From positions 1-28,925 of IMG/VR virus record IMGVR_UViG_3300030117_002102: a stretch of DNA of 28,925 nucleotides; one strand, written 5' to 3'. The notes beneath the pieces are model-generated. The model ran no database searches. It saw only the letters and a list, made by a program, of their open reading frames with translations, and was not told the DNA's origin. Positions 1 to 28,925 of this stretch are shown piece by piece. Every line of letters starts with the position of its first letter. The first letter of the stretch is position 1. A program made the translations under genes and the position numbers. The stretch comes from a virus.

Positions 1-260
1 TTTGTATTAGCATCTAAAGCACTTTCCCCAAGAACAGTGTTACCAGATTGAGAGTTTGCACCTTTACCTACAGTTACTCCATTAAATATTACATCTCCAC
101 TATGACCAGCTTCCTTCATTAAAGGAGTACCGCCAGCAGTACTTCCGTCATGTACTACAAGTGTTTTCTTTGTTGTGTCTACAGTTACTTCTTTTGATAC
201 ACCTGTAAACGAGTTATGTTCGGTGGTTGTACCACCTCTAAGTTGTAATTGATCCGGCAT
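1..260 (-). CDS. Fibre-like structural protein, 5' part only (runs off left edge)
   Basis: About 86 N-terminal residues are visible, starting MPDQLQLRGGTTTEH and continuing into TLVVHDGSTAGGTPLMKE and NTVLGESALDAN. The opening resembles the short N-terminal module of many phage tail-fibre and tail-spike proteins (an RGG/RGT opening, then VHDGSTxGG). The NTVLGESAL stretch resembles the repeated N-T-x-x-G-x-x-A-L unit of fibre and adhesin heads. A strong ribosome binding site, AGGAGG at 271-276, lies inside the last codons of the upstream tail fibre gene, and the ATG follows that gene's stop by three bases, so the two are co-translated. Its place directly after gene 17 suggests a second host-recognition or fibre-tip component. 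The family call is by motif only; the rest of the protein is outside the window. Confidence 0.75.
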   Translation of the reverse strand, partial: MPDQLQLRGGTTTEHNSFTGVSKEVTVDTTKKTLVVHDGSTAGGTPLMKEAGHSGDVIFNGVTVGKGANSQSGNTVLGESALDANT

Positions 261-263
261 TGT

Positions 264-2366
264 TTAAATTCCTCCTAAGTTGTAAGTTGCAGATCCTTTT
301 GCGAGTGACATTCTTATTGGCGTAAATGATTCATTACTAAAAGCAGCACCTGTTACTGCTAAACCTCCAAGGTCGATATTGTTATTTCCAGCTGATGCGG
401 TGTATACAGTACTAAATGACGAAGTAGCAATTTTTGAAAGTTCTAAAGAATTTTCACTTATCCCTTGCCAAACGCTTCCGTTATATAAACGAAGTTGTTT
501 TGTAACGTTATTCCAGTACAAATCTCCTTCAGTTACTGAATTGCCTAAAGCATCACTAACTGGATCTGACGCTGCTTCTCCTAGATAAAGAGATAAGAAA
601 TTATTTAGATATGTCGAAGCGGTATTAACATTGGTAATATTTGAACCAACAGTATTAACGTTTGATATAGAACCAGCAACAGTATTAACGTTTGCTATGT
701 CTCCAGCTGTAGTATTTACATTTGCAATACTTCCAGCTACTAATCCTATATCTGTTTCATCATTAGCAACTGTTGTTACGTTTCCGCTTATACCAGCTAC
801 AGTTGTTACGTTTCCAGATATACCAGCTACAGTAGTTACATTGCTGTTATTACCAGCAACAGTATTTACGTTATTAATACTTCCGGCAACTGTATTTACA
901 TTGCTGATAGAACCAGCTGTAGTATTGACGTTTGCAATACTGCCTGAAACATTACCTATATCTGTACCATCATTTGCAACAGTAGTTACATCAGATGAGA
1001 TACCAGCAACAGTAGTTACATTTCCACTTATACCAGCTACGGTATTTACGTTACTGATAGCTCCAGCAACTGTATTTACACCAGATATACTTCCAGAAAC
1101 TGTTGTAACCTCTGTTGCTTTTGGTACTAATCTGTGGAATGTATATGTATTGAGAGTAGTAGTTGTTTCTACTATCATTCCAAATGTTGCAGCGTATGTT
1201 GTGCTATTTGCTGCTCCTGTAATAGTTACTGTTGAGTTACCTACAGTTCCATTACTAATAGATATTTGACCAGAACTATTAGAAGTTAAATTCTGAGATA
1301 AAGCTTGAATGCTGACTAAAGTACCAGCACCATTATTTACATCAGGGTTAGTATTAGGAAAACTTGTTTCATTTGCTATTGGTACAAAACCACCGACATC
1401 ATCTACAAGGTCTACTATTCTTGCGTCAATAGCAGCTGTAGTCGCTACCTTATTATCAGCAGCAGTCCAAGTTTCACCTGACTGTATTTCTTCAGCACTT
1501 GCTAAGTTGTAATATCTAGCGTCTGCTTCAGTTTCGGTAAAGTACCTACCGTCTAATGCACCATTTAATAATTCGGTTTCTGTGTAATATCTACCGTCTA
1601 ATTGACCATTAGTTAGTTCAGTTTCTGTAAAGTATCTATTGTCTAAAGTACCTGTTGCTATTTCAGAATCAGTTAATTTATTAGATTGAAGTAGTGTTTT
1701 TATTTCTGCTGCTGTCTGATCATCTTTAGCATTAGTTTCAATGGTATCTAGCTTAGTACCATCTGCTGCTACGTCTCTAGAATCTACGGTTCCAGATACA
1801 CCTATATTACCTGTAACTGTTAGTGCACCTGTTGCAGCAGTACCAGTTGTAGATAGGTTTTGAGATCCAAACGATGGGGTTACTTTTGTACCAGCTATCG
1901 CCGCGGATGCATTTATATCAGCATTGACAATAGTTCCATCTGCAATTTTGGCTGATGTTACTATTGAATCTTTAAGATCTGTTTCTCTTACAAGCTGTCC
2001 TACAGCTTCTTGAGAAGAATATAAAACCTGTGTTTGGTTATCGTTTAAATCAACCGCACGTATAGAAGAACCGGCAGCAAATACAGCTGCTGGATTATCT
2101 ACATTTGTATTTCTATATATATGTACATTACCGCCATCAAGAATTGCATTTCCTGGATGGGCTGGAGTAGCACTGTTAAATACTACATTTGTGTTTGATA
2201 TTGTGTAGTCATTATCCGTTTGACCACTTGTGTTTTCAGTTTTGAGTTCCCATAATCCTGATGAAGCGTTATAAATTTCTACTTTTAAATCGCTATTAGC
2301 AAGAATTGGGAAAGTAAACGGTAAGGTTGTACCCCCTCCGTCTCTAAAATGTTCAGTTGTCGCCAT
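264..2366 (-). CDS. 17: T7 gp17-like tail fibre protein
   Basis: A 700-residue tail fibre. Residues 1-130 resemble the N-terminal virion-anchoring domain of T7 gp17: the VFAAGSSIRAVDLNDNQTQ segment matches the T7 region with DGSILRAYDLN, which binds the tail. Beyond it the protein is modular. There are three 15-residue repeats of the type RYFTETELTNGQLDG (residues 244-286), then about fourteen 10-residue G-S-I-S-N-V-N-T-V-A units (about 417-583), then a tip domain. The segment GNSVTEGDLYWNN near residue 608 resembles a fibre-tip motif seen in other cyanophage fibres. The fibre makes the first contact with the host surface. The distal half does not resemble T7, as expected for a host-range protein. 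Gene 16 lies upstream (63-base gap) and another fibre-like gene follows after three bases. Confidence 0.92.
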   Translation of the reverse strand: MATTEHFRDGGGTTLPFTFPILANSDLKVEIYNASSGLWELKTENTSGQTDNDYTISNTNVVFNSATPAHPGNAILDGGNVHIYRNTNVDNPAAVFAAGSSIRAVDLNDNQTQVLYSSQEAVGQLVRETDLKDSIVTSAKIADGTIVNADINASAAIAGTKVTPSFGSQNLSTTGTAATGALTVTGNIGVSGTVDSRDVAADGTKLDTIETNAKDDQTAAEIKTLLQSNKLTDSEIATGTLDNRYFTETELTNGQLDGRYYTETELLNGALDGRYFTETEADARYYNLASAEEIQSGETWTAADNKVATTAAIDARIVDLVDDVGGFVPIANETSFPNTNPDVNNGAGTLVSIQALSQNLTSNSSGQISISNGTVGNSTVTITGAANSTTYAATFGMIVETTTTLNTYTFHRLVPKATEVTTVSGSISGVNTVAGAISNVNTVAGISGNVTTVAGISSDVTTVANDGTDIGNVSGSIANVNTTAGSISNVNTVAGSINNVNTVAGNNSNVTTVAGISGNVTTVAGISGNVTTVANDETDIGLVAGSIANVNTTAGDIANVNTVAGSISNVNTVGSNITNVNTASTYLNNFLSLYLGEAASDPVSDALGNSVTEGDLYWNNVTKQLRLYNGSVWQGISENSLELSKIATSSFSTVYTASAGNNNIDLGGLAVTGAAFSNESFTPIRMSLAKGSATYNLGGI
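618..1118 (-). repeat. Tandem 30-bp coding repeats in tail fibre, 210-bp higher-order period
   Basis: About fourteen imperfect 30-base units encode a 10-residue motif G-[SA]-I-[SA]-N-V-[NT]-T-V-A. Two units are followed by a variant spacer, NDGTDIG near residue 465 and NDETDIG near residue 535. These are 70 residues apart, so seven units form a 210-base super-repeat present about twice. The regular glycine and beta-branched pattern suggests a repetitive trimeric beta-structured shaft; that is inference. Such repeats can expand or shrink by recombination and change fibre length. Confidence 0.9.
1506..1637 (-). repeat. 45-bp repeats (RY[FY]TETEL module) in tail fibre
   Basis: A 15-residue unit, RYFTETELTNGQLDG, then RYYTETELLNGALDG, then a shortened RYFTETEADA and RYY, occupies residues 244-286. 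This kind of unit is common in phage tail fibres as a linker between anchor and shaft. It differs from the 10-residue repeats further along the same protein. Confidence 0.85.
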
Positions 2367-2429
2367 TTGTTTTACAAACGTTTAGTTATTTAGTTGTGTT
2401 GTGGCGAGTGGATTTGTTTATTCAGTTGT

Positions 2430-5400
2430 CTATTTAGGCATTTCTAGAATTTTGTCTATTGTGCCTTTGTTTGCTTTTCTATTTTTTAATTTTTGGTCTC
2501 TTTCTTCAATAAGAAGTTTTTGGACGTCGTTATCATTTTTAAGTGATGCCCAAGCTCGTTTCTTAGCTTTGTCAAATGCTTTTGCAATTCGTTTGTAGTG
2601 TGGGAATGATCTTGGTTCAACATCGCTCATACCATTTTTTCTGTAGTAATTCATTTCAGCTATAGATATCTGTATTGATTCCTCTTGAGCCATTTTGTCA
2701 AATACAGCTTCTAAGTTTTGATCTCCTATAGCTTTTTGAAACATTGATCTTACCTTTGGACTATCACTTAAATCTGTTCCATCTGGAGCTGAGTATGTAG
2801 AAGTTCTCATGTCGTAACCACTGTTAAATAACAACTCTCTCCCGGGTGTGTAATCTATATTGAAATTCACAGGTGAAACCGCATTAAACATACGGGTTAT
2901 AAAGTTGTGATCTTTAATAGGTTTACCAGTTAAGATGTCGTATTTAATTGGTAATGGATCTGCTGCAATATTTTCAGTAATTAAGTTTCTATTTCTAATA
3001 GAACTTTGAATATCTGAACCTAGCTCTCTTGTATATGGTGTTAAGACTTTACCTATTTCATTTCTAAGACTAGATAATGGAATAGAGTTATTCATTAACG
3101 AAGCTATAATTCTCTGCTGTTGTCCGGGTGCACCAGAAAATAAATCTACAAATGACTGTAATCCTGCTAAGTAAGATTTACTTGTAGCAGTACCAGCTAA
3201 CGCCATTGCTAATTTAGATAATCTATCTTCAGCCCACTCTTCACCCATTAATTGTTGGTGATCTCCTATATCTCCTACTAACGCAAGTATCTGGTTGTAA
3301 GGTTCAAAGGCATCATAGTTAACCCAAACACTACCAATCTTGATTGTTCTTGGTTTCCATCCAGCATCTAACCATGCTTGTCTCTGTGTTCTATCTGTTG
3401 GTCCGTTGCCATGCAAATTACCACTTAAATAAGCCATACTTGCCATACTTAATGCTGCTGATCCAATAGCTAATCTTCCGTTTTGTACGGCTTTAGCTGT
3501 CATTAAATCTTGTGCATTATGTATTCCATACTTATGTAGTGATTGGAGATTAGATCCGGGTTTTGCTCGAGCTATTTCATTAAACTCTTTTACTAAGAAA
3601 TTAAATCCGGGAGTATGTTTAGCAGTAAGTGCTAATCCATTAATACCAGTTCTAGCGAATAAGAAAAATGGTCTAGCCCATGGTGCTTCATTAAAAGCTT
3701 CTCCAAGTTTCTGAGAAAATCCTGTTAAATCTTGAGTAAGAGTAGCTTCTTTTCTACTAAATTCAGCAGCAGCATCTGTAATATTTCCATTAGAGTCGAA
3801 TATTTCTCTGTTAAAATTATCTTCCATATCCTTAAAAAACTTTGCATCTAAGTTTTGGAAGTTACCATCAGGTAAATTATTTGCTGCCTTTAAGAATGCT
3901 TTTTCTCTGGCTCTTGCTCTACCAATAATTAATGCAAAAGCATCATCAGTAGATGCCATAAGTTTTGTTGAGTAGGTTAAGAAACTATTGTCGTTTAAAC
4001 CTCTAACCATATTGGCAGTTCTATATAAAGCTTTGTCTACTTTGTCTCCTCTTGTTTCTGCCCAATGACCATACATAGTCCATTGGTCGTCTTGTTTAGT
4101 TCTTTCAACAAATCGAGTTTTCATTGTTGATATATCACCAGACCAATAAGAATTTAATCTTCTTTTAAATAATTCAAATGATTCTGGTATTGCTTCACGC
4201 ATTGCATTTAGAGAAGCTAATCCAGCTCTCATAGTTGCACTATCACCTTTTAATAAACCTCCCATAGCCATAGCCATTGGACGTGAGAATGCTGCGGTTG
4301 ATGTACCCATAATTGCTCGGACTGCTGTTTTAGGTCCAGACAAAACACTATGAGTAAACATAGATCCCATCTCTCTTAGGAATGCACCAGTCTTCTTAGG
4401 ATCTCCAGCCCATTCACCACCTCTCATCTTGACTCTCATAAATTGGTCAAGGTCATCTAAGGTATGAATATCTTTAGCCATTGATATACCTTCAAACATT
4501 GCTTTAAATACTTCATCACCACCTTCTTCAGTAGTCATATCTAAAGCCATACGGAAAGCATCAATACTTTCCTGTACCTGTTTGTCTATCATTTCAGCTT
4601 GGAGTTTTGGAGTAACTGTTTTACCCTTCATCTTTCCAAACTGTCGTAGTTGTTGAGATATGTCGGCACTAGCCATTTTTCTCATCTGCAAACCAGCGAT
4701 TAGTTTTTCAACCATCTTCTGAGCAGGACCATCAATATCTTTAATATCGTATATATCTGCTAATTCTCTAGCTGCAACTCCTGCATCTCTTATCTCATTA
4801 AATAGAGAAGCATTAATCATGTCTATAGCATCAGCATATTCACTAGAAACATAAGAATATAGTGTTTTCTTTCCACTCTTACGTACTAACTTTTCTTTGC
4901 TTATATCTTTCCAAAACTCTTCAGGAGTCATGTCAGATGTATTTCTACCTTCAAAAACTGCTTTATAAGTATCAAGATCTTGTGCATACATTTCATCAAG
5001 AGTCTTACCTTGTCTTGCAGCAGTCTCTTTCATCTGTTGAACATAACCTTGACTTCTAAATCTACGTAGTACTTTTTCTATAGTTGATCTAGCTTCTTTA
5101 GTTCCTTTAGTAAGTGCAGTTACTTCGGTGTTAGATAGTGTAGATCCAACACTTCCTTCTTCAGAACCAAAGTTATTCTTTTTAGCTTTTCTTGCCTTAT
5201 TTATATTCTGAGCTGTATCTATTGAAGTAGTAGCTTTTTGAGATCTGTCTGCTATGTCAGGATTCTTACTTGCTCTGAATCCGGGTTCTTTTGTCTGAGT
5301 AGCAGCTTCTTCTAGTTGTTGTGATTTAATACTTTTTTTTCTAGAAGTAATAAAATTATCTACTTGATCTTTTGGAAAGTTTCTAGCAACACCACTGAAG

Positions 5401-6110
5401 ACAGTATCGAATATACCTCCAAGAACTAAGCCTTCAGTTACGTTTTTAAGAGTATTCATTATTGGACCATCATGCTCTTGTGAAGCGAGTGGTGTGTCTA
5501 ATAAAGGAAATCGTTCTTTTAGCATTCCAGAAATATTGCTATCTAAAGAATCTTTATCTAATAGGTCGAATCTAGCTCCAGTTAAAGCACCACTTTTTAA
5601 AGTTTGTAAAAATGTAAGACCCTGCCCAACTTTTCCAAAACCACCAGTTGTATATAACGTAGCTCCAACTTCAGTGACACCTTTTATTAAGCCTCCCCAC
5701 CAAGTTTTAGTTTCTAAAGGATCTTCCTCACCATATAGAAAATCATCCCATTCTGGTTCATAACCTTCTTCAGTTTCAGCTTGTTCTTGCATCTCTCCTG
5801 AAGCAAAATCAATGACTCGTTCTGGAAGAGTTATAAGGTTAGCAGCAGCTTCTCTAACACCAGCTATAGGTGCTTTAACTGTGTCAGCTATATAGTCACC
5901 TAAGTTAGCTCCTTTTGGCTTATTAACTTCGGTTGCTTGTTTTTCTTGTTCAGCATATTGTGCTTGCACAGCAGCTCGTTCTTGTTCTGCTGCCTGCATG
6001 TTTTCGACTGCCGCAGCAGTCTCCTCTTCGGATAATCCATCACCAGACATTTCTATTTCCAGTGTCGGATCAAATTCTTCATTCATAGTTACCACGGTAA
6101 ATATTGCCAT
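2430..6110 (-). CDS. 16: T7 gp16-like internal virion protein
   Basis: A 1226-residue protein at the position of T7 gene 16 (1318 residues), between the gp15-like protein and the tail fibre. In T7, gp16 is part of the internal core; it leaves the capsid at infection and helps form the channel that carries DNA across the cell envelope. Assignment rests on size, order and neighbours; I could not see the N-terminal transglycosylase motif of T7 gp16. The first 100 residues are acidic and Gln/Glu-rich ([16 protein letters not shown]). The C-terminus is highly charged and probably helical ([20 protein letters not shown]). Start is uncertain: ATG at 6110, or the internal ATG at 6086 giving [12 protein letters not shown]. 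Neither has a clear ribosome binding site. The gap to gene 15 is 22 bases. Confidence 0.85.
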
Positions 6111-6132
6111 ATGTAAGGCAAGTAAACCGCAG

Positions 6133-8187
6133 TTACTCGTCCTTAATCATGTTGGCTTTTTTGTTATAAATGGATGTTTTAACGTTTTGTTCTCCGTACT
6201 CCTTTTCATATCTCGCTCTTGTGATACGACCACGGGTAGGAAATTTATAAATAAGATTTTTTATTTTTTCATCTAACTCATCTTTATTATCATCTTTAAC
6301 TTCATCTTCTACTAAAAACCTAACTTGAGCATTTGCAAAGTTAATTGGATTAACACCCATTCTTAAAGCTAAATCTCTGTAGTAAGTTGGTACATCTTTA
6401 AGCTGTTTAAGTGGTGAGTTATGCCACCTTACTAATCCTTTTTCTATTTCTGCATTAGTTGTTATTTTATTAGTTCTCCACTTACCACCAGCAGATTGAG
6501 TCATAGATACTTGCATCATTCGACTATAAGTTTCATCTTCACTTACAAAATCTGTACTCATCATTTGCTGAACTTGTCTTTGATTGAGAGCTGCTTTTTC
6601 AACAGCTTGTTTAGCTGCTGCCATAGCTTGTTCAGGAGTACTTACAACTTGACCATTACGGAAATAAGTAGATTGGTAAGTTTCATTGAATATTGCTTGT
6701 AAGTTATCTCTTAAAGCTAACCACTTAGGAGATTTAATATCAGTCTCACCAAATTGATCTTCTGATGCTTCGTTAGTCCAAGATTTAACCCACTCTTCAC
6801 CTTTTTTATTATCATCTGAACCGGGAGTTAGTGCTGTACTTTGGATAATTTTATCTTTGTATTTATTAAATATTTCAGTACTAACATTAGTCATATCAAA
6901 ATCATATACACCACCTTGGTAGCGGATAGATTCCTGAATCATTTCTTCAGCTAAGTCATCATCCATATGACCAGCTAATGCTCCAGCTATTTCATTAGGA
7001 ACATAACCATCATATTCATTTTTATAATATGCCATCAGTAGAGTTTTCTGATCGTTATTTAAATCACCATATGATTTGATAGTTTCTACATCAGCAATTA
7101 TTTTTGCTTCTTTTTCTTCTTCTCTAGCTTGTACTCCTAGTTTAGCTGCATCAGCAAGTTCACCTTCTAAACCTTCCCATTCTCTCCATGAACCCATAGT
7201 CTTTGTAGAACCATCACGAGCTGTTATTTCGTGATTAACAATAGACATAGCTTCTGGATAAGAGATTTTATTTTCACTAACTAAATCAATAAGATTTTCT
7301 TTAAAAGCTATTCTTCCAGCTTGTATAGAAACCCTATTTCTAGCTGCGTAACGAGCTGCCCAATCATGTGCTAACTGATGACCATCTTCAGGATTAGCAG
7401 TAGCGAACCCTAGTTCTATCATTTTTGAGTCAGACTCTTGTACTTGAATTTGATAAGCTTTCTCTCTTTTTATAGCTTGTTCTTTTCTTCTTTTTTCGTC
7501 AAACTTATCTATTTCTGGTTTAACAACAGTAGCTACAAGAGCTTCGTTTAATCCTGCAAATTGCTTGGCATATTCAAACTTAATCTTTGTATCTAAAGCT
7601 GCTTGTTCAGCAGGAGATAGATTATCCATGTGACCAACAGAAACTTGTTGACCATCTCTAATAACATCTATCTTTGTAGTTTCGTAAGCATCATAAACAA
7701 ACTGGTCATACCCTTTAGCTTTCTGTAAAGCATATTGTTCTGCAACCATATACTTTTCCCAGCCAGCCATGTTACGAAATTCTTGAGCGGTGATAGAGTC
7801 ACCGGTTTCTGCTTCGTACTTAGATGCAAACTCTTGTGTAGCTAAATCATCTTCAAATAACTGATCTCTTTCACCTCTAAATGTTGCTTCTAATTCTGGG
7901 CTAACACCTCTAGTTAGTATGTCTAGTTTTATTTGTGCTTCTCTATCTTGTCTATATTTATCTTGTTTCTTTTTTATGATGTCACCGATAGTAGATGAAA
8001 GAGACGCTAAGCCCTTATACATATTTTCGGTATTTCTAACTCTATCAGCAGAGTTTTTTTCTAACTGCTGTAGGTATCTTTCTTCTGATTGTTGGATAGC
8101 TCTATCAGATTTTTCTTGTTCTGGTATAACATCAAGTATTTCTTGAGGTGTTACTGACTGCCCAGTTATATTGTAATTTGGAATCAT
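6133..8187 (-). CDS. 15: T7 gp15-like internal core protein
   Basis: A 684-residue protein (T7 gp15 is 747) between the gp14-like and gp16-like genes. It is rich in Glu, Lys, Gln and Ala, with long stretches that look alpha-helical, for example DRAIQQSEERYLQQLEKNS near residue 30 and KRREKAYQIQVQESDSK-like segments in the middle. T7 gp15 forms an internal core ring and, after ejection, part of the periplasmic DNA-delivery tube. There is no signal peptide or membrane segment. The ATG lies two bases after the gp14 stop, with no clear ribosome binding site, so coupled translation is likely. The call is mainly by position and length, because this family diverges rapidly. Confidence 0.85.
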   Translation of the reverse strand: MIPNYNITGQSVTPQEILDVIPEQEKSDRAIQQSEERYLQQLEKNSADRVRNTENMYKGLASLSSTIGDIIKKKQDKYRQDREAQIKLDILTRGVSPELEATFRGERDQLFEDDLATQEFASKYEAETGDSITAQEFRNMAGWEKYMVAEQYALQKAKGYDQFVYDAYETTKIDVIRDGQQVSVGHMDNLSPAEQAALDTKIKFEYAKQFAGLNEALVATVVKPEIDKFDEKRRKEQAIKREKAYQIQVQESDSKMIELGFATANPEDGHQLAHDWAARYAARNRVSIQAGRIAFKENLIDLVSENKISYPEAMSIVNHEITARDGSTKTMGSWREWEGLEGELADAAKLGVQAREEEKEAKIIADVETIKSYGDLNNDQKTLLMAYYKNEYDGYVPNEIAGALAGHMDDDLAEEMIQESIRYQGGVYDFDMTNVSTEIFNKYKDKIIQSTALTPGSDDNKKGEEWVKSWTNEASEDQFGETDIKSPKWLALRDNLQAIFNETYQSTYFRNGQVVSTPEQAMAAAKQAVEKAALNQRQVQQMMSTDFVSEDETYSRMMQVSMTQSAGGKWRTNKITTNAEIEKGLVRWHNSPLKQLKDVPTYYRDLALRMGVNPINFANAQVRFLVEDEVKDDNKDELDEKIKNLIYKFPTRGRITRARYEKEYGEQNVKTSIYNKKANMIKDE

Positions 8188-8189
8188 AG

Positions 8190-8948
8190 TTAATAAGCAT
8201 AAGGTTGAAATGTCCTAATAGTATGACCAAAGTATGGATCTATAACAGGAGTGTAATTAGGTTTTGGTTGTGGGGTTGGATCTGGAGTTGGATCTGGAGT
8301 TTTTTCCTTTCTGAAAGGATTTTTATTGAGGTCCATATCAGCTAATCCAGCACCTAACGCCTCACCCATGCCAAGCATGAATGTCATACCTACGTTCTGC
8401 ATTACTGGAGCTGGTGGTGCTAAGTCTTGTACTGGTTGAATAGCTACCTGTCCAAAGGATCTATTTAGTAGTCCTTTTAACTGTCTATTAACTTCTTCAT
8501 TACTTTCTTTAGCTTTGTAACCAGCCAGAGTTAAACCTCTTGATCTAAGTCTTTGACTCATACCAAACTTTGCATTGTTGATAACTAATGCTCTAGCTAC
8601 TGATTTACCTCCTACTCCACGCTCTGCGGCAGAGGCTTCAATCGCTCCTTCGCTGGCAATCATCTTTCTAAAGTCTTCTTGGTTCTCAAGTATGGCTAAA
8701 GATCTTGCATTATTTAATTGTATTTGTGTTCTTGTATAAGCTCGTTGAGCTGCAATGTTTGCTTGGTCAACTTCTTCCTCGAACTGAACTTTCTTACTTG
8801 CATAAGTAGCTCTTGTTTGCATCCACTTACGTTCTCTGACTTTAAGTTGATGTTCATAATTCCTGCGTCTTTCTGCGTTAGCTTGAGATGCTGCTTGAGC
8901 ACTTCCTATCGCTGAGAACGCTGGACCTATTGCTGCTGGACTGCACAC
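8190..8948 (-). CDS. 14: T7 gp14-like internal virion protein
   Basis: A 252-residue protein starting MCSPAAIGPAFSAIGSAQAA, which matches the style of T7 gp14 (MCWAAAIPIAISGAQAIS): Met-Cys followed by an Ala/Ile/Gly-rich amphipathic stretch. T7 gp14 inserts in the outer membrane during DNA ejection. The centre is helical and charged (RTQIQLNNARSLAILENQED), followed by an EGAIEASAAERGVGGKS segment. The C-terminus has a PDPTPDPTPQPKP linker encoded by 12-base repeats and ends in aromatic residues (FQPYAY). The start is GTG at 8948, chosen for the conserved MC(S/W) opening. It lies inside the 3' end of the upstream gene (71-base overlap). Confidence 0.88.
   Translation of the reverse strand: MCSPAAIGPAFSAIGSAQAASQANAERRRNYEHQLKVRERKWMQTRATYASKKVQFEEEVDQANIAAQRAYTRTQIQLNNARSLAILENQEDFRKMIASEGAIEASAAERGVGGKSVARALVINNAKFGMSQRLRSRGLTLAGYKAKESNEEVNRQLKGLLNRSFGQVAIQPVQDLAPPAPVMQNVGMTFMLGMGEALGAGLADMDLNKNPFRKEKTPDPTPDPTPQPKPNYTPVIDPYFGHTIRTFQPYAY
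8278..8301 (-). repeat. 12-bp tandem repeat encoding Pro-Asp-Pro-Thr in gp14
   Basis: Two exact copies on the + strand of the 12-mer GGATCTGGAGTT encode the PDPT units of the gp14-like protein's C-terminal linker. It is likely a slippage-generated flexible spacer. Confidence 0.75.
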
Positions 8949-22127: not shown

Positions 22128-23450
22128 CTAATGTACGTCAGCCCATGTTGGTCCTTCTTTTGCTTCGGCAGCTATGGGACAACGTAATTGGTAATATTCT
22201 CCAGCTAATATTGCTGATGTTTCTAGTTCTCTTTTTACTCCAACTGCGTGATAAGGTCGACATTCATACTGCAATTCGTCGTGAACGAATGCAAGTTGAT
22301 GTGTGTGAAAAGGTTGTAGTCGATCATTTGCAATGACCATCCAACGCTTTGCAACAATACCAGCAGAGCATTGAAGTAAATAATTTAACGCTTTGTGCGG
22401 GCTATCGACCAGCACCCTTCGTCCGTCCAATGCCAAGAGGTAACCGTTAGCAGCCTTATTTGAAACCGCTCCCAATAAGTCGGAGAGTCCTTCGATAGCA
22501 GATACGAAAGCCGTTCGGATCTCGGATCCTTTTTTTCTAGCTTCCTTGGGTTGTAAAGAGTTATCATAACTCGTTCCTATTTTTTCGTTTCCAGCACCAT
22601 AAAGAAAGGCATAAGTCACAGTCTTAACTTGGCGTCTGGTGATTCCTATTTTGTCTGCATTTACTTGATGTATATCATCGTTTAGTAAGATATCGGCGTA
22701 TCGACCTCCGTCATATCTGCCAAGGTAATGTGCAAGCATTCGTAGTTCAATACCACTTAAATCTGCTCCTACCATTGTGTGTCTTGGACTGGCAGTAAAT
22801 AGTTCTCTAAATTCTTTATCAGCAGGTACCTGTGCTAAATTCGGTTTTCTGTGAGCACATCTAAATGTGTTTGTAGAAACTGAACAGTTGTGGTGAATCC
22901 TACCTTTAGTCGTAACAAGCTTGTTCCATGCGTTCACGCCTTCGGATATCATTCCAAGCTTCTTCTTTATCGTCAAACATTTCGCACATGCTAGCGAGAA
23001 GGGAATATTTATCTCCGTCAATGTAATCTCGTCGATAATTGGTTTCCCAGTCGTAGTGGTCTTGCTCAATTTGACATTCAAATGTGTCGTCAGAATCCAT
23101 GCTATATGGTCTCTCGATGTGGGGTTAAACTCCTTTATTCGTTGTATTTCACATCCTGCTCTGTATCCTTGTGTTGCGTTATCTCGTTTAGGAGTGAACA
23201 ACGATCCTGCAACGAAAGGGAATTGTTTTCGAAGTATGTCAATAGTTTCTTCCATCTCTCTTCTGAGATGTGACTCAAGTTGCTGAGCTTTTGATTCATT
23301 AAATGTCCATCCATGAATTTCTTGTTCAGTCAATATTTCTGCGACGCGATGCTCTAATCTACACGCGTCAGATAAGGGCGGAAGTGATCGCATAATTTTG
23401 TAGTTACTTTTACGTCTTGGACCATGTAGTCCTGCATTTCTTGACTCCAC
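22128..23450 (-). CDS. 5: DNA polymerase, polymerase domain (gene 5, 3' part; split)
   Basis: A 440-residue frame holding the family A polymerase domain. Motif A is VGADLSGIELRMLAHYLGRY (catalytic Asp), motif B is RRQVKTVTYAFLYGAG with Tyr at the E. coli 762-equivalent position, and motif C is AFVHDELQYECR (catalytic Asp). The C-terminus KEGPTWADVH mirrors T7 (MGPNWAICH). The 5' end lies in the -1 frame relative to the exonuclease piece and overlaps it by 97 bases. The nominal start is GTG 23450 and an ATG lies at 23393, neither with a clear ribosome binding site. Homology to T7 starts only at DACRLEHRVAEIL, equivalent to T7 VDIEHRAAWLL. Together the two pieces are ~590 residues, a normal cyanophage polymerase length. 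Probably one gene with a frameshift, or a frameshift-translated gene. Confidence 0.93.
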   Translation of the reverse strand: MESRNAGLHGPRRKSNYKIMRSLPPLSDACRLEHRVAEILTEQEIHGWTFNESKAQQLESHLRREMEETIDILRKQFPFVAGSLFTPKRDNATQGYRAGCEIQRIKEFNPTSRDHIAWILTTHLNVKLSKTTTTGKPIIDEITLTEINIPFSLACAKCLTIKKKLGMISEGVNAWNKLVTTKGRIHHNCSVSTNTFRCAHRKPNLAQVPADKEFRELFTASPRHTMVGADLSGIELRMLAHYLGRYDGGRYADILLNDDIHQVNADKIGITRRQVKTVTYAFLYGAGNEKIGTSYDNSLQPKEARKKGSEIRTAFVSAIEGLSDLLGAVSNKAANGYLLALDGRRVLVDSPHKALNYLLQCSAGIVAKRWMVIANDRLQPFHTHQLAFVHDELQYECRPYHAVGVKRELETSAILAGEYYQLRCPIAAEAKEGPTWADVH

Positions 23451-23872
23451 TCTTGCCAGTCACTGGTCTTACCAAAGTCTCCTTTGTATTCGCCTAATCT
23501 GTAACCGTATGCTTCGAGTGAATGTCTTCCATATAGTTGTAGTGGCATATGTCGCCATTGCCTTCGCTTATCTATCTCCATCAAATTTGGATGAAATAGG
23601 CGAGAAAGGACAAGAGTATCAACGCATTCAGCACAAGTAAAAAACTCACTGCTAAGCTTCCGTAGAACAGGAAGGTCATAACCAATAATGTTATGCCCAG
23701 CGAGAGTATCAGCTTCCATAAGTTGATTGATACCATCCCTGATACTGGGCGTCTCGTCATCTTGATCGTTATATACGTAGCTTTTTTCCTCTTTGGTACA
23801 AAAGGTGGAAATGCAATGTATTTTAGAAACGTCATATAATAGTCCGTTTGTTTCTATATCGAATACCAGCAT
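23354..23872 (-). CDS. 5: DNA polymerase, 3'-5' exonuclease domain (gene 5, 5' part; split)
   Basis: A 172-residue frame equal to the proofreading domain of T7 gp5. Catalytic acids: Asp and Glu in VFDIETNGL (residues 4-6), NIIGYDLPVL near residue 61, CVDTLVLSRLFHPNL near residue 83, SLEAYGYRLGEYKGDF near residue 117, and QDYMVQDVKVTTKL near residue 147, matching T7 DYMVQDVVVT. It ends shortly after, at a TAG, where T7 continues into the polymerase domain. The ATG overlaps the stop of a small upstream ORF (TAATG) and has no ribosome binding site of its own. Confidence 0.93.
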   Translation of the reverse strand: MLVFDIETNGLLYDVSKIHCISTFCTKEEKSYVYNDQDDETPSIRDGINQLMEADTLAGHNIIGYDLPVLRKLSSEFFTCAECVDTLVLSRLFHPNLMEIDKRRQWRHMPLQLYGRHSLEAYGYRLGEYKGDFGKTSDWQEWSQEMQDYMVQDVKVTTKLCDHFRPYLTRVD

Positions 23873-25863: not shown

Positions 25864-26432
25864 TAGAAGTCGTCTTCTACTGAGCTTGGTGTCGTGTCAG
25901 GTGTCACGTTTGGGTCTTGTGTCTTAAATCCAGCAGTGTTGCCAAATAATTCAGCAGCTCCTTGATCGTCAAGATCACCTGTATCCACACCTACCTCTGA
26001 CTGCACACTTACTATCTGAACTCCAGACAACTTGAGTGATGTTCCATAGGTCACGCCATCTCTAAGTATGTATGGTTTCTGAGTAAATCCAAGCTTAACT
26101 TTGCTGCCTGAATAAACTGGTGTACTTTCGTCCTTGATTGGTGTACCTTCAGTATCAACAATCGGAGGTCTCTTTTCATCTGACCAAGAAAACTTGATTA
26201 GGTACTTACCTTTCGATACCTCTTCCCATGGTGTAGGTTTTAGTGTCGATCTCTTTGGGTTCTTAAGTTTACTCTCTGCCCACTTTAGGCATTCGTCTCT
26301 TTCATCTTCTAGCGTAGAGATTAAGTCTTCTCCTACTACAGCTTTTAATGAATAGCCAAACTTACTTGGCTTCAACACAGCCTGAAAACCTTCAAGGGTT
26401 ACAGGCTCGGGTGTTACGTGTATGTTTCTCAT
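25863..26432 (-). CDS. 2.5: Single-stranded DNA-binding protein (T7 gp2.5-like)
   Basis: A 189-residue protein (T7 gp2.5 is 232) between RNA polymerase and endonuclease, the T7 order. It has a beta-rich core (LKPTPWEEVSKGKYLIKFSW, then VYSGSKVKLGFTQKPYIL and GTSLKLSGVQIVSVQSE) and an acidic C-terminus ending SSVEDDF. The terminal Phe after acids is the T7 gp2.5 hallmark and is needed to contact polymerase and helicase. ATG overlaps the RNA polymerase stop (TAATG). Confidence 0.9.
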   Translation of the reverse strand: MRNIHVTPEPVTLEGFQAVLKPSKFGYSLKAVVGEDLISTLEDERDECLKWAESKLKNPKRSTLKPTPWEEVSKGKYLIKFSWSDEKRPPIVDTEGTPIKDESTPVYSGSKVKLGFTQKPYILRDGVTYGTSLKLSGVQIVSVQSEVGVDTGDLDDQGAAELFGNTAGFKTQDPNVTPDTTPSSVEDDF

Positions 26433-28807
26433 TAACAGAAAAAATATTGTGAATCAATTACGGCTTCTGGTTTTAAGTCGCCAATAATCGGTGGTTCAGA
26501 CTCTGACCCGATAGATCGAGCAAAGTCTTTTAATGGTTCATGCTCCGCAAATAGGTGCATGTAAGTTTCTCGTACGAGAGTGGACAGTTTACACATATCA
26601 GTAGCTAAACAAAGCACTGAATCATGTATTGTCGCTATTGGTTTTTTGAATTTAGTTGCTGCGAAATGCAATAAAGAAGCATCTAGTGAGTGAATTAGAT
26701 TTGGAGCTGTAGCGTTTTTATGATGTTTTAAGTCAACTACCTTTTTTTCACTACCAATTACAAGCTGACATCTTCCCATTAACATAGTGTCAATACGAAT
26801 AAGTTTTCCTGAGTTTTTCATTAACTTTTGATGTACTTTAAAGCCACTTGGAGATCTCCAAACTATTTCCTCTTTTCCACTTTTAATAGCTTTCGTAACT
26901 TCTTGTTCTATCCACTTCATCACGTTCATAGCTCCGGGAACTACTTCGTTCATAGCAACTCGCACAGCTTGTACGCATTGAGTTAGTTCTTCTTTATCAA
27001 CTTCTACTCCCTTTTCCTTAAAGGCGTCCCTGATATATGACCTATTACTAAAGGGTTTAGCATTGTAAGGTATTGTCATCACGCACCTTTTGGTTACTTT
27101 CCTGTCCCAGTAAGGCTTTAACCTGTCAGGAATAGCCTCCACGCTCCTTGAAGCGATGGTTGCATAGGCGTCTTGGGGTTTGTTACTTCCAATGACATTT
27201 ACCATGCGAGCAGTGGAGGCGTCCTTGGCGAGACCGGCGAGAATCTGAAGACCACTACATGTAGCGTCTACTGCTACAGGAAGATGTGTTACGTCCGTGT
27301 GTCCCAAGATGAGACTGACATACTCATTTGCAGCAGCCAAAAATAACCATGGTTCGTCTGCATTTTCCCAGTCAGCGATGTATTTGATTGGGTCTTTAAC
27401 TATTCTGAATACAAGATCTTGATTAGCTGGTATTGATACCCACTCTAATCTTTCTTGCATCGTAGCTTTATCTAGTCCATACGTAGTTGCTAACTGAAAC
27501 TTGATCCACTCCAAACCTTTTGGTGTTATCTTTGCACCTTCACTAAAGAGAATTAGACTTTTTCCAAAGTCAGTATCTTGAATTGAAAGTACCGAAGGTA
27601 TGGGATATGCTCTTCCACGGTAATCAAACGAAAAAGGTATGTAGAAATCCTTACCTTTAAACTCACGTACAACATTCATAGTCATGCGTGTTCGACAGGA
27701 CTTACGCACCTCTGCTGCCTGTTTGTTCATCGCTTTTGTTTTTGATCTTTTCCACTCTGTCCATACTTCCTTGCTCGCATCTTCATGCGGTTTAGGTTGG
27801 ATAGGGTGACTAACAATAGGTTTAAATTTACCTACTTCTATTTCTTTCTCTTCTAATTCCTCCGCAACTTGTACTATAAAGTTATTTAACTTGTATTTTA
27901 CGGATTGAAGAGAATTAATAAATTCATAAGGAAGTTCTTCTCCCTGTATATATGAGGGATCGGTTTTTCGTACAAATTGATGGCATTTATTAAGGTCATT
28001 TAATAGATAACCGCCATCTTGTAACTGGTTCCAATTTCTTGGCTTAATAAGCATAGGCTTAGCCAAAGGACTAAAAGTTTCTGCAACTTTAATAAGAGTT
28101 TCTTTGTGTTCAATTAATTCTTGAGTAGGAGTTAGTAAATTTAATTTATTATTTTTACTTGCCATGACAACTACTCTTTCAAACCATTTAGTTTCTTCAC
28201 AAAATACATCAACGCACCATGCTCCAAGTTTATTTTTAATACTTTTACTCCATGTAATCCAAGGTGTAATGCCACATTTATGGATAGTTGTTTGTATTGA
28301 TTTTCTTTTATATGCAGTTCCTTTAGATTCGTGCCAATAATTCTTTTTTAAAGTAGCAAATAAAGCCGGTGCTTTTTCATCGTAGTATCTAAGTTGACAG
28401 TCAGCTTCAATTGCGTTTGCGATGCTTGTGACAATATTTTCAACACGATGTTTTGTCTTTCTAGAAGAGAATACATGATCGAATATTATCTTACCTGTAA
28501 TTAAAGCTATTAACTCAGAAGGTATAGGAAATAAATATTGATTTAAAAAAGCAACACCTCTTCCAGCATGTTTGCGTGAATATTCTTTCTTATCATCTAT
28601 TGCCTTAATTATTGTAGGCAAGATAGCAGTTATTGATGCTGAGCCATAAACAGTAGCGGAAGCATATGTTTGATCTTCTAGTTTTTTTGTATTCAAACGA
28701 AGCTTTTCTATTCCACCACTTATACATTTACGCTCGAACTCCTGCTGATCCTCAATCTGTTTTTCGGTAAGCATGCTCGGTAGATTTTTCTGTGCACTTT
28801 CGTACAC
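26432..28807 (-). CDS. 1: Single-subunit phage RNA polymerase (T7 gp1-like)
   Basis: A 791-residue polymerase (T7 is 883). Catalytic signs: LPVAVDATCSGLQILAGLAK (Asp537-equivalent), KRCVMTIPYNAKPFSNRSY (Lys631/Tyr639-equivalent region), IHDSVLCLATD (Asp812-equivalent) and FYIPFSFDYRGRAYPIPS before the palm. The segment around NSGKLIRIDTMLMGRCQLVIG corresponds to the promoter-specificity loop region. The N-terminal third is shorter than in T7. The protein ends DSQYFFC rather than T7's FAFA. It transcribes the middle and late phage genes. The start is uncertain: GTG 28807, or ATG 28774 (MLTEKQIEDQQEF), neither with a strong ribosome binding site. A terminator and a tRNA-Leu fragment lie just upstream. 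Confidence 0.96.
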   Translation of the reverse strand: MYESAQKNLPSMLTEKQIEDQQEFERKCISGGIEKLRLNTKKLEDQTYASATVYGSASITAILPTIIKAIDDKKEYSRKHAGRGVAFLNQYLFPIPSELIALITGKIIFDHVFSSRKTKHRVENIVTSIANAIEADCQLRYYDEKAPALFATLKKNYWHESKGTAYKRKSIQTTIHKCGITPWITWSKSIKNKLGAWCVDVFCEETKWFERVVVMASKNNKLNLLTPTQELIEHKETLIKVAETFSPLAKPMLIKPRNWNQLQDGGYLLNDLNKCHQFVRKTDPSYIQGEELPYEFINSLQSVKYKLNNFIVQVAEELEEKEIEVGKFKPIVSHPIQPKPHEDASKEVWTEWKRSKTKAMNKQAAEVRKSCRTRMTMNVVREFKGKDFYIPFSFDYRGRAYPIPSVLSIQDTDFGKSLILFSEGAKITPKGLEWIKFQLATTYGLDKATMQERLEWVSIPANQDLVFRIVKDPIKYIADWENADEPWLFLAAANEYVSLILGHTDVTHLPVAVDATCSGLQILAGLAKDASTARMVNVIGSNKPQDAYATIASRSVEAIPDRLKPYWDRKVTKRCVMTIPYNAKPFSNRSYIRDAFKEKGVEVDKEELTQCVQAVRVAMNEVVPGAMNVMKWIEQEVTKAIKSGKEEIVWRSPSGFKVHQKLMKNSGKLIRIDTMLMGRCQLVIGSEKKVVDLKHHKNATAPNLIHSLDASLLHFAATKFKKPIATIHDSVLCLATDMCKLSTLVRETYMHLFAEHEPLKDFARSIGSESEPPIIGDLKPEAVIDSQYFFC

Positions 28808-28817
28808 ATGGACAATT

Positions 28818-28847
28818 AAGAAAGGGACTAGCTTTTTAACTAATCCC
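28818..28847 (-). terminator. Likely factor-independent terminator upstream of RNA polymerase
   Basis: Minus strand: GGGATTAG, loop TTAAAAAG, then CTAGTCCC (8 pairs, one G-T) and a TTTCTT tail. It would end transcription arriving from the gene to the right, probably the integrase, just before gene 1. The T-run is interrupted, so it may be leaky. Confidence 0.7.
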
Positions 28848-28873
28848 GTCCACTAATTATTCAAATCTCGTGA

Positions 28874-28915
28874 GGATTTTAAGTCCGGCGCGTCTACCAA
28901 TTCCGCCACACTCCC
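28874..28915 (-). other. attP: Probable attP: 42-base match to the 5' part of tRNA-Leu(UAA)
   Basis: The minus strand from 28915 reads as a tRNA-Leu 5' half: acceptor strand GGGAGTG, D-arm GCGGAATTGGTAGACGC, anticodon stem CCGGA, loop CTTAAAA with anticodon TAA, then TCC, after which the match breaks (no anticodon-stem closure, T-arm or matching 3' acceptor). P-SSP7 is reported to carry a 42-base exact match to an uninterrupted host leucine tRNA gene beside its tyrosine recombinase. The length and tRNA here agree. There is no intron after the anticodon T, so the host gene targeted should be intronless. The integrase is expected just past 28925. Confidence 0.85.
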
Positions 28916-28925
28916 AAGGGGTTTC

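Follow-up and report, generated by a model that had tools for sequence, protein, structure and literature searches.

Why should a T7-like cyanophage carry the first half of a bacterial tRNA gene, and what would become of the host gene and its surroundings if the phage recombined there? The locus that raises this question lies at the end of the window analyzed here, that is, the whole stretch of 28,925 nt taken from IMGVR_UViG_3300030117_002102, a virus record of 45,809 bases. The relevant features are given below in window positions, or in positions of the record where these lie beyond the window.

26432..28807, minus strand: T7-like RNA polymerase gene, which follows attP (Pfam RNA_pol, E 5e-63)
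28672..28873, minus strand: RNA polymerase-side att arm, homologues of which are kept in window-type host inserts (shortest to +129, longest to +243 from tRNA base 1)
28824..28847, minus strand: terminator-like hairpin, T-rich in its tail, separating the half tRNA from the RNA polymerase gene
28874..28915, minus strand: attP core, corresponding to tRNA-Leu(UAA) bases 1-42, i.e., its 5′ half up to and including the anticodon arm (exact host match)
28916..28925, minus strand: last 10 bases of the flank on the integrase side, up to an assembly gap (sequence read)
Record 28950-28955, past the window end and the N gap: -10-like TACAAT, in a position like that of the host trnL promoter
Record 29025-29909, just right of the gap: tyrosine integrase, 294 aa, reading frame intact (Pfam Phage_integrase, E 3e-22)

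An earlier note on this DNA had claimed that 42 bases match a tRNA-Leu gene from its first base to the 3′ side of the anticodon stem. This match is exact (42/42 bases) in at least 119 stretches of bacterial genome contigs, which is far beyond chance; 80 matches, as listed, all fell in Prochlorococcus or uncultured Synechococcaceae, and ARAGORN identified the host genes as tRNA-Leu with anticodon taa. Identity extends two bases (TT) upstream of tRNA base 1. At the other end, the abrupt stop that the note had described is real, since the phage has TC after base 42 where hosts have GT, and its reading that the site uses the 5′ half including the anticodon is borne out by a fragment running from base 1 through the anticodon arm. 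The note had also staked its interpretation on a near-exact match in a host trnL gene and on a tyrosine recombinase just right of position 28925, and both were found. Its comparison with P-SSP7 needs one refinement: in P-SSP7 (L200) the match stops a few bases earlier on the 3′ side.

By DNA comparison, the right part of the window is closest to the T7-like cyanophages P-GSP1, P-SSP2, P-SSP3, and P-SSP7, and it shares with P-SSP7 the order of integrase, att, and RNA polymerase. Ten bases beyond the tRNA fragment, the window ends at a run of 10 N (record 28926-28935; L006:527-536), which falls between the tRNA half and the promoter-like element. In the close relative L126, a much shorter spacer joins the same two sides, so that the gap at the att site seems to be an artefact of scaffolding. 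With the gap lying between integrase and att, the criterion for an attP of this kind is met, namely a match to the first half of tRNA-Leu directly downstream of the integrase and upstream of the RNA polymerase. Beyond the window, the integrase is followed by a small protein assigned to a transcriptional-regulator PHROG, in a position like that of gp0.7 of P-SSP7. We identify the feature as a T7-like cyanophage attP, a further case of a published site type whose core was already known.

Two side observations concern the same record. An overlapping ORF pair on the minus strand (window 22128-23450 and 23354-23872) lies where the P-SSP7 DNA polymerase is annotated as split or frameshifted, and a split polymerase as in P-SSP7 seems to be present in the window phage as well. 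At its end (L006:14765-17410), the record breaks off within a long, highly repetitive protein rich in Asn and Thr; judged from the translation, this is probably a tail fibre whose C-terminus is chaperone-like.

According to the 2021 study (PMC8776855), 11 of 13 integrase-bearing T7-like cyanophages have an attP matching the first half of tRNA-Leu, and P-SSP7 and S-TIP37 integrate at the tRNA-Leu site, which in S-TIP37 requires both the integrase and attP. These experiments agree with the claim of the earlier note that the phage can, or once could, insert into the host chromosome. The window site resembles the attP of P-SSP7 and S-TIP37, with their exact host match and integration at trnL, as well as the order of integrase, half tRNA-Leu, and RNA polymerase seen for P-SSP7; it differs from P-SSP7 in that its match runs a few bases further on the 3′ side and in its integrase, which has only about one third identity to that of P-SSP7. 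Matches of 42 bp and 39 bp to tRNA-Leu have also been described in two cyanophage contigs (PMC3861242). PMC8776855 further reports that no stable lysogens formed despite integration, that no difference in fitness was detected between S-TIP37 and its integrase mutant, and that the benefit of the integrase to the phage is uncertain.

The lack of a fitness difference suits the reading that the fragment is merely a relic attP, kept by descent without present function, and it also suits such a reading that the fragment is not itself a gene and that a search of the window found no tRNA gene. We regard this reading as highly improbable. The integrase frame is intact, the 42 bases are exact, and related phages integrate in experiments (PMC8776855). 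Moreover, the arrangement is conserved far beyond close relatives: the same element occupies the same place, in the order integrase, att, RNA polymerase, in 80 phage contigs whose integrases are down to about 32% identical to that of the window phage. This set comprises 82 viral loci (L126-L138 and L198-L266) plus the window's own record, less L131 (without the exact 26-base pattern), L228 (a different context with neither integrase nor RNA polymerase), and L259 (a host contig, left out of the promoter, hairpin, arm-presence, and contig-order counts). Exact identity from tRNA base 1 spans 39-44 bases across the set. Relative to this base, the RNA polymerase gene starts at +107 to +154 in 77/77 contigs showing it, and the integrase gene ends at -114 to -80 in the 71 contigs that contain it.

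The attP also bears a -10-like element. A TAnnnT hexamer occurs at -27 to -24 in all 55 distinct phage flanks; windows of the same width elsewhere gave 6.9 on average and 32 at most, and the host trnL loci show a TAnnnT peak at -27/-26, the same spacing as the phage element. In the window's own sequence, which the gap interrupts, a scan for the promoter consensus returned no complete sigma-70 site; promoter activity therefore rests on position and conservation and is inferred without transcript data. On the other side of the half tRNA, the terminator scan returned one terminator-like site against a mean of 0.2 in shuffles, and the hairpin has a fold z of -4.1. The search pattern for this hairpin was fitted by 41 of the 80 contigs (39 did not fit), and four stem types that differ by paired changes account for 40 of the 41. 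The hairpin is probably a terminator, an activity inferred from its form. We also considered that the host trnL promoter might drive the phage RNA polymerase after integration, an idea weakened by the terminator-like hairpin lying between them.

We propose that the phage integrase recombines attP with the 5′ half of the host tRNA-Leu(UAA) gene, as published for P-SSP7 and S-TIP37 and, for the window phage, by inference. Integration within the 5′ half would sever the tRNA from its own promoter. The attP block, however, would act as a unit of promoter element, half tRNA, and hairpin. At the integrase-side junction, the phage promoter and phage 5′ half would join the host 3′ half and so rebuild a complete, transcribed gene, and at the RNA polymerase-side junction, the orphaned host promoter and 5′ half would run into the phage hairpin. 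Such a promoter-like element would explain how the 5′ half of a tRNA can be used without silencing the gene. The arrangement is reminiscent of tRNA-dependent lysogeny, in which, according to PMC10865867, the phage compensates its host for a tRNA gene broken by integration; those phages bring a whole replacement tRNA, whereas here a 5′ half and a promoter element would be supplied and the host gene rebuilt.

The host side of this site proved informative in a way that the earlier note had not foreseen, any more than it had the promoter-like element in attP: many trnL loci contain inserts with phage arms. The host sample consisted of 119 loci from the exact 42-mer matches listed (the true total is at least 119), most of them titled as single-cell or metagenome assemblies. 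The gene upstream of trnL, which from its sequence we take to be pyrC, is visible in 110 of them; the nine that end before it were left out, among them L056 and L103, which do carry phage-type flanks. The distance from the pyrC end to trnL is 104-192 bp in 85 of the 110 listed loci and 356-3048 bp in the other 25. With L117 reclassified as occupied because its first 5′ half is a left copy, 26 of these listed Prochlorococcus loci are occupied and 84 are empty, with pyrC beside trnL.

The structure of the inserts, their arms, and their occupancy are directly observed. Inserts measure about 0.25-2.9 kb, and their arms are about 65-98% identical to phage contigs (L259 remained a target in these comparisons, where its rows represent host flank and not the integrase side of a phage). 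Among the loci listed, the RNA polymerase-side arm is present in 22/26 occupied loci, being undetectable in four inserts, versus 1/84 empty loci, the single exception (L107) looking truly empty on reading. A left copy of the 5′ half is found in 18 of 25 measured inserts, mostly 105-109 bp from pyrC, the position at which an empty genome has the start of its trnL. For most occupied loci there are near relatives with an empty site (e.g., L117 and L015, 99.3% identical in pyrC), and tandem arrays of two inserts occur in G159, G017, and L013. In a wider search of 266 genomes of the genus, the RNA polymerase-side arm of the window phage matched 17 and the integrase-side arm of L134 matched 18. A loose integrase-side criterion scored all 26 occupied loci but also 56 of the 84 empty ones and was not used as evidence. 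Likewise, a CTAGCG-like motif near -98 (14/26 occupied with a loose pattern, 0/84 empty with a slightly different one) serves as illustration only, because both patterns were written after the sequences had been seen.

As for the tRNA gene itself, a complete trnL stands behind a phage-type flank in 11 of the 119 listed host loci, and ARAGORN calls an intact tRNA-Leu(taa) in 11/11. When 12 insert-bearing genomes were searched whole, just one 5′-half copy in each was found to continue into the tRNA 3′ half. A counterpoint is that the working trnL has a host-type rather than a phage-type promoter flank in 16/25 inserts, which a simple circle model does not predict. Many arms are decayed, and therefore these insert copies may no longer move. 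In L163, L165, and L168, the left and right arms are closest to different phage types. Host-type flanks, mixed-type arms, and decayed arms count against the integrase account and fit a history in which both homologous recombination and integrase took part.

One viral record captures such a junction. In L259 (IMGVR_UViG_2551306554_000001, 1-8780), a Prochlorococcus-like trnL flank is joined via the 5′ half to a phage RNA polymerase, and the phage part also encodes an ssDNA-binding protein, a primase/helicase, and a ribonucleotide reductase. It is a host-phage junction of a relative of the window phage, in a natural cell or in an assembly. We rejected the idea that the entire promoter region of the host is copied by P-SSP7-type phages, L259 being no phage flank but a contig of the host, in which a phage is integrated or infecting.

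Most inserts contain one or a few genes, often for envelope proteins; some have at least two ORFs and some none of note. Pfam assigned TPR, outer-membrane beta-barrel (OMP), PspC, DUF4234, TM2, and DUF805 families in a first batch of seven proteins, and a YadA-like anchor (two proteins), a rhomboid, and a putative 2OG-Fe(II) oxygenase in a second batch of ten, six of which had no family. No integrase was present among these 17 scanned cargo proteins. The arms end at recurrent positions for a given cargo, in different hosts and with arms of different phage types: at about +205 to +243 and -202 to -221 for TPR cargo, +132 to +139 and -114 to -125 for PspC cargo, and about +144 and -218 to -222 for OMP cargo, the left arm being no more than weak in the first G017 insert. 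The end of most P-SSP7-type inserts falls at about +156 to +164, adjoining ATCTAGCG, which repeats on both arms of P-SSP7-type phages near -95 and +152; this motif was picked after the data had been seen.

We propose that such inserts are cassettes lacking an integrase, in which phage-like att arms enclose a single cargo gene or a few, and that they would be excised and inserted in trans by the integrase of infecting phages. Carriage could occur by the capture of circles at the phage's own attP or by accretion, through composites that arise when a phage integrates beside a cassette, as described for CIMEs in PMC5704250. The integrase of otherwise lytic phages would in this way serve as a gene shuttle, alongside or instead of the lysogeny route. 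Host inserts flanked by phage sites suggest that these phages move genes between cells; the moving enzyme and the carrier are inferred, with no reads or circles to document them.

The main rival remains that the inserts are ordinary decayed prophages that have lost nearly all phage DNA, their host genes having arrived later by unrelated routes. C-terminal integrase fragments do persist at trnL in G009, G255, G003, G017, and G008 (window-type inserts), window-type inserts keep the start of the RNA polymerase gene, and PspC cassettes mostly follow their hosts. Across the 266 genomes, a search with the window integrase found only the C-terminal fragments at trnL and weak matches elsewhere, and one with the P-SSP7 integrase found a single weak match of 27%; no intact phage-type integrase was found, as decay would have it, and the criterion for a classical stable prophage is not met. 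Random decay, however, predicts varied leftovers, whereas the same cargo and arm ends recur across hosts and phage-type arms. Furthermore, a large stretch of phage genome is kept in 0/25 inserts examined, the arms found in window-type inserts are never shorter than the intergenic att region, and the similarity of some cargo far exceeds that of the hosts. We therefore consider decay unlikely as the origin of the inserts.

That last point can be quantified. TPR cargo in G003 and G009 is 96.7% identical against 78.9% for the flank; short TPR cargo shows 95.7% against 84.4% (G159/G002) and 90.6% against 84.6% (G159/G255), and OMP cargo 91.8% against 84.0% (G008/G017). These are the four of 18 pairs compared in which cargo is closer than flank; in the other 14 it is less alike. 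In the alignment of L031 and L104, too, identity rises abruptly at the insert. PspC cargo, in contrast, has mostly diverged as much as its hosts, and only 2/45 pairs show it clearly closer than both flanks. Judged by these identities, some cargo is shown to have spread horizontally between divergent hosts.

Cargo could alternatively be exchanged by homologous recombination across pyrC, trnL, and old arms, with phage integrase needed for first insertions only. In L031 and L104, the cargo is nearly identical with a much less similar left arm, and in L163, L165, and L168 the two arms of an insert are closest to different phage types; both are expected from recombination within the insert. The flanking host DNA of L031 and L104, however, is only about 79% identical and would be a poor substrate, and trnL flanks cannot explain PspC- and TPR-like genes beside other tRNA genes with other short repeats. 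Exchange of this kind strikes us as decidedly unlikely to be the whole account.

Taken as a whole, attP, promoter handover, and integrase-moved cassettes together probably provide the best explanation, although we hold this with no great assurance. More tentatively, and as a possibility that we would neither assert nor dismiss, the integrase of T7-like lytic cyanophages may shuttle integrase-less cassettes, usually with one envelope gene, among Prochlorococcus at this one tRNA gene, which would help to keep the integrase in non-lysogenic phages. No phage contig with a cassette between integrase and RNA polymerase was found: none of the 80 att-bearing contigs matches the cargo tested, which did not include that of most P-SSP7-type inserts. 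TPR, PspC, and OMP cargo had no relatives among the viral contigs searched, nor did TPR and PspC cargo in the phage records searched.

Among known systems, the inserts are most readily compared with CIMEs, which keep attL and attR, have lost integration and transfer genes, and often stand in tandem at one site (PMC5704250). The presence of both att sites is met for most inserts but not all (22/26 with the RNA polymerase-side arm, 18/25 with the left copy), and the lack of their own integration and transfer genes is met. CIMEs, however, derive from conjugative or mobilizable elements, whereas the inserts, of about 0.25-2.9 kb, have the att arms of an essentially lytic phage and their transfer is inferred; they work like CIMEs but are not classed as such, because their arms match cyanophage sequence. 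Tycheposons are likewise cargo-bearing elements at Prochlorococcus tRNA genes, but in PMC10872708 they span 4-200 kb and the one shown has a tyrosine recombinase. The inserts are smaller, lack a recombinase, and have phage att arms, so that the tycheposon criterion is not met. PICMI and other phage satellites are also small chromosomal elements that depend on virulent phages, as the inserts would by our proposal; a PICMI excises and replicates by means of three core proteins of its own (PMC10803314), whereas the inserts encode no integrase and their packaging is only hypothetical.

As far as the literature was searched, host inserts with phage att arms represent a new class, and the promoter-like element in attP is also new. 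Neither a promoter in attP nor host cassettes are discussed in the portions of PMC8776855 examined, and no report of either was found in the open full-text literature, although novelty is not certain. Cassettes with phage-like arms in about a quarter of the listed trnL loci offer a testable benefit of the integrase, namely gene transfer, and point to a specific way in which surface genes could be gained and lost by a streamlined bacterium that is very abundant in the ocean.

Related genes also occur elsewhere. PspC genes are present in 17/266 genomes, 14 of these at trnL; the other three are more distant, and two of them are neighbours of tRNA-Ser(GCT). The TPR cargo has three distant relatives, two of which adjoin tRNA-Ser(CGA). 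These single PspC- and TPR-related genes (L313:1128-1829 and L314; L292 and L294) are accompanied by short repeats, TGTTGTGAG and GTGTTGGTGGGTA, and by a partial tRNA copy in L313. Possibly they are cassettes of the same type that rely on another recombinase.
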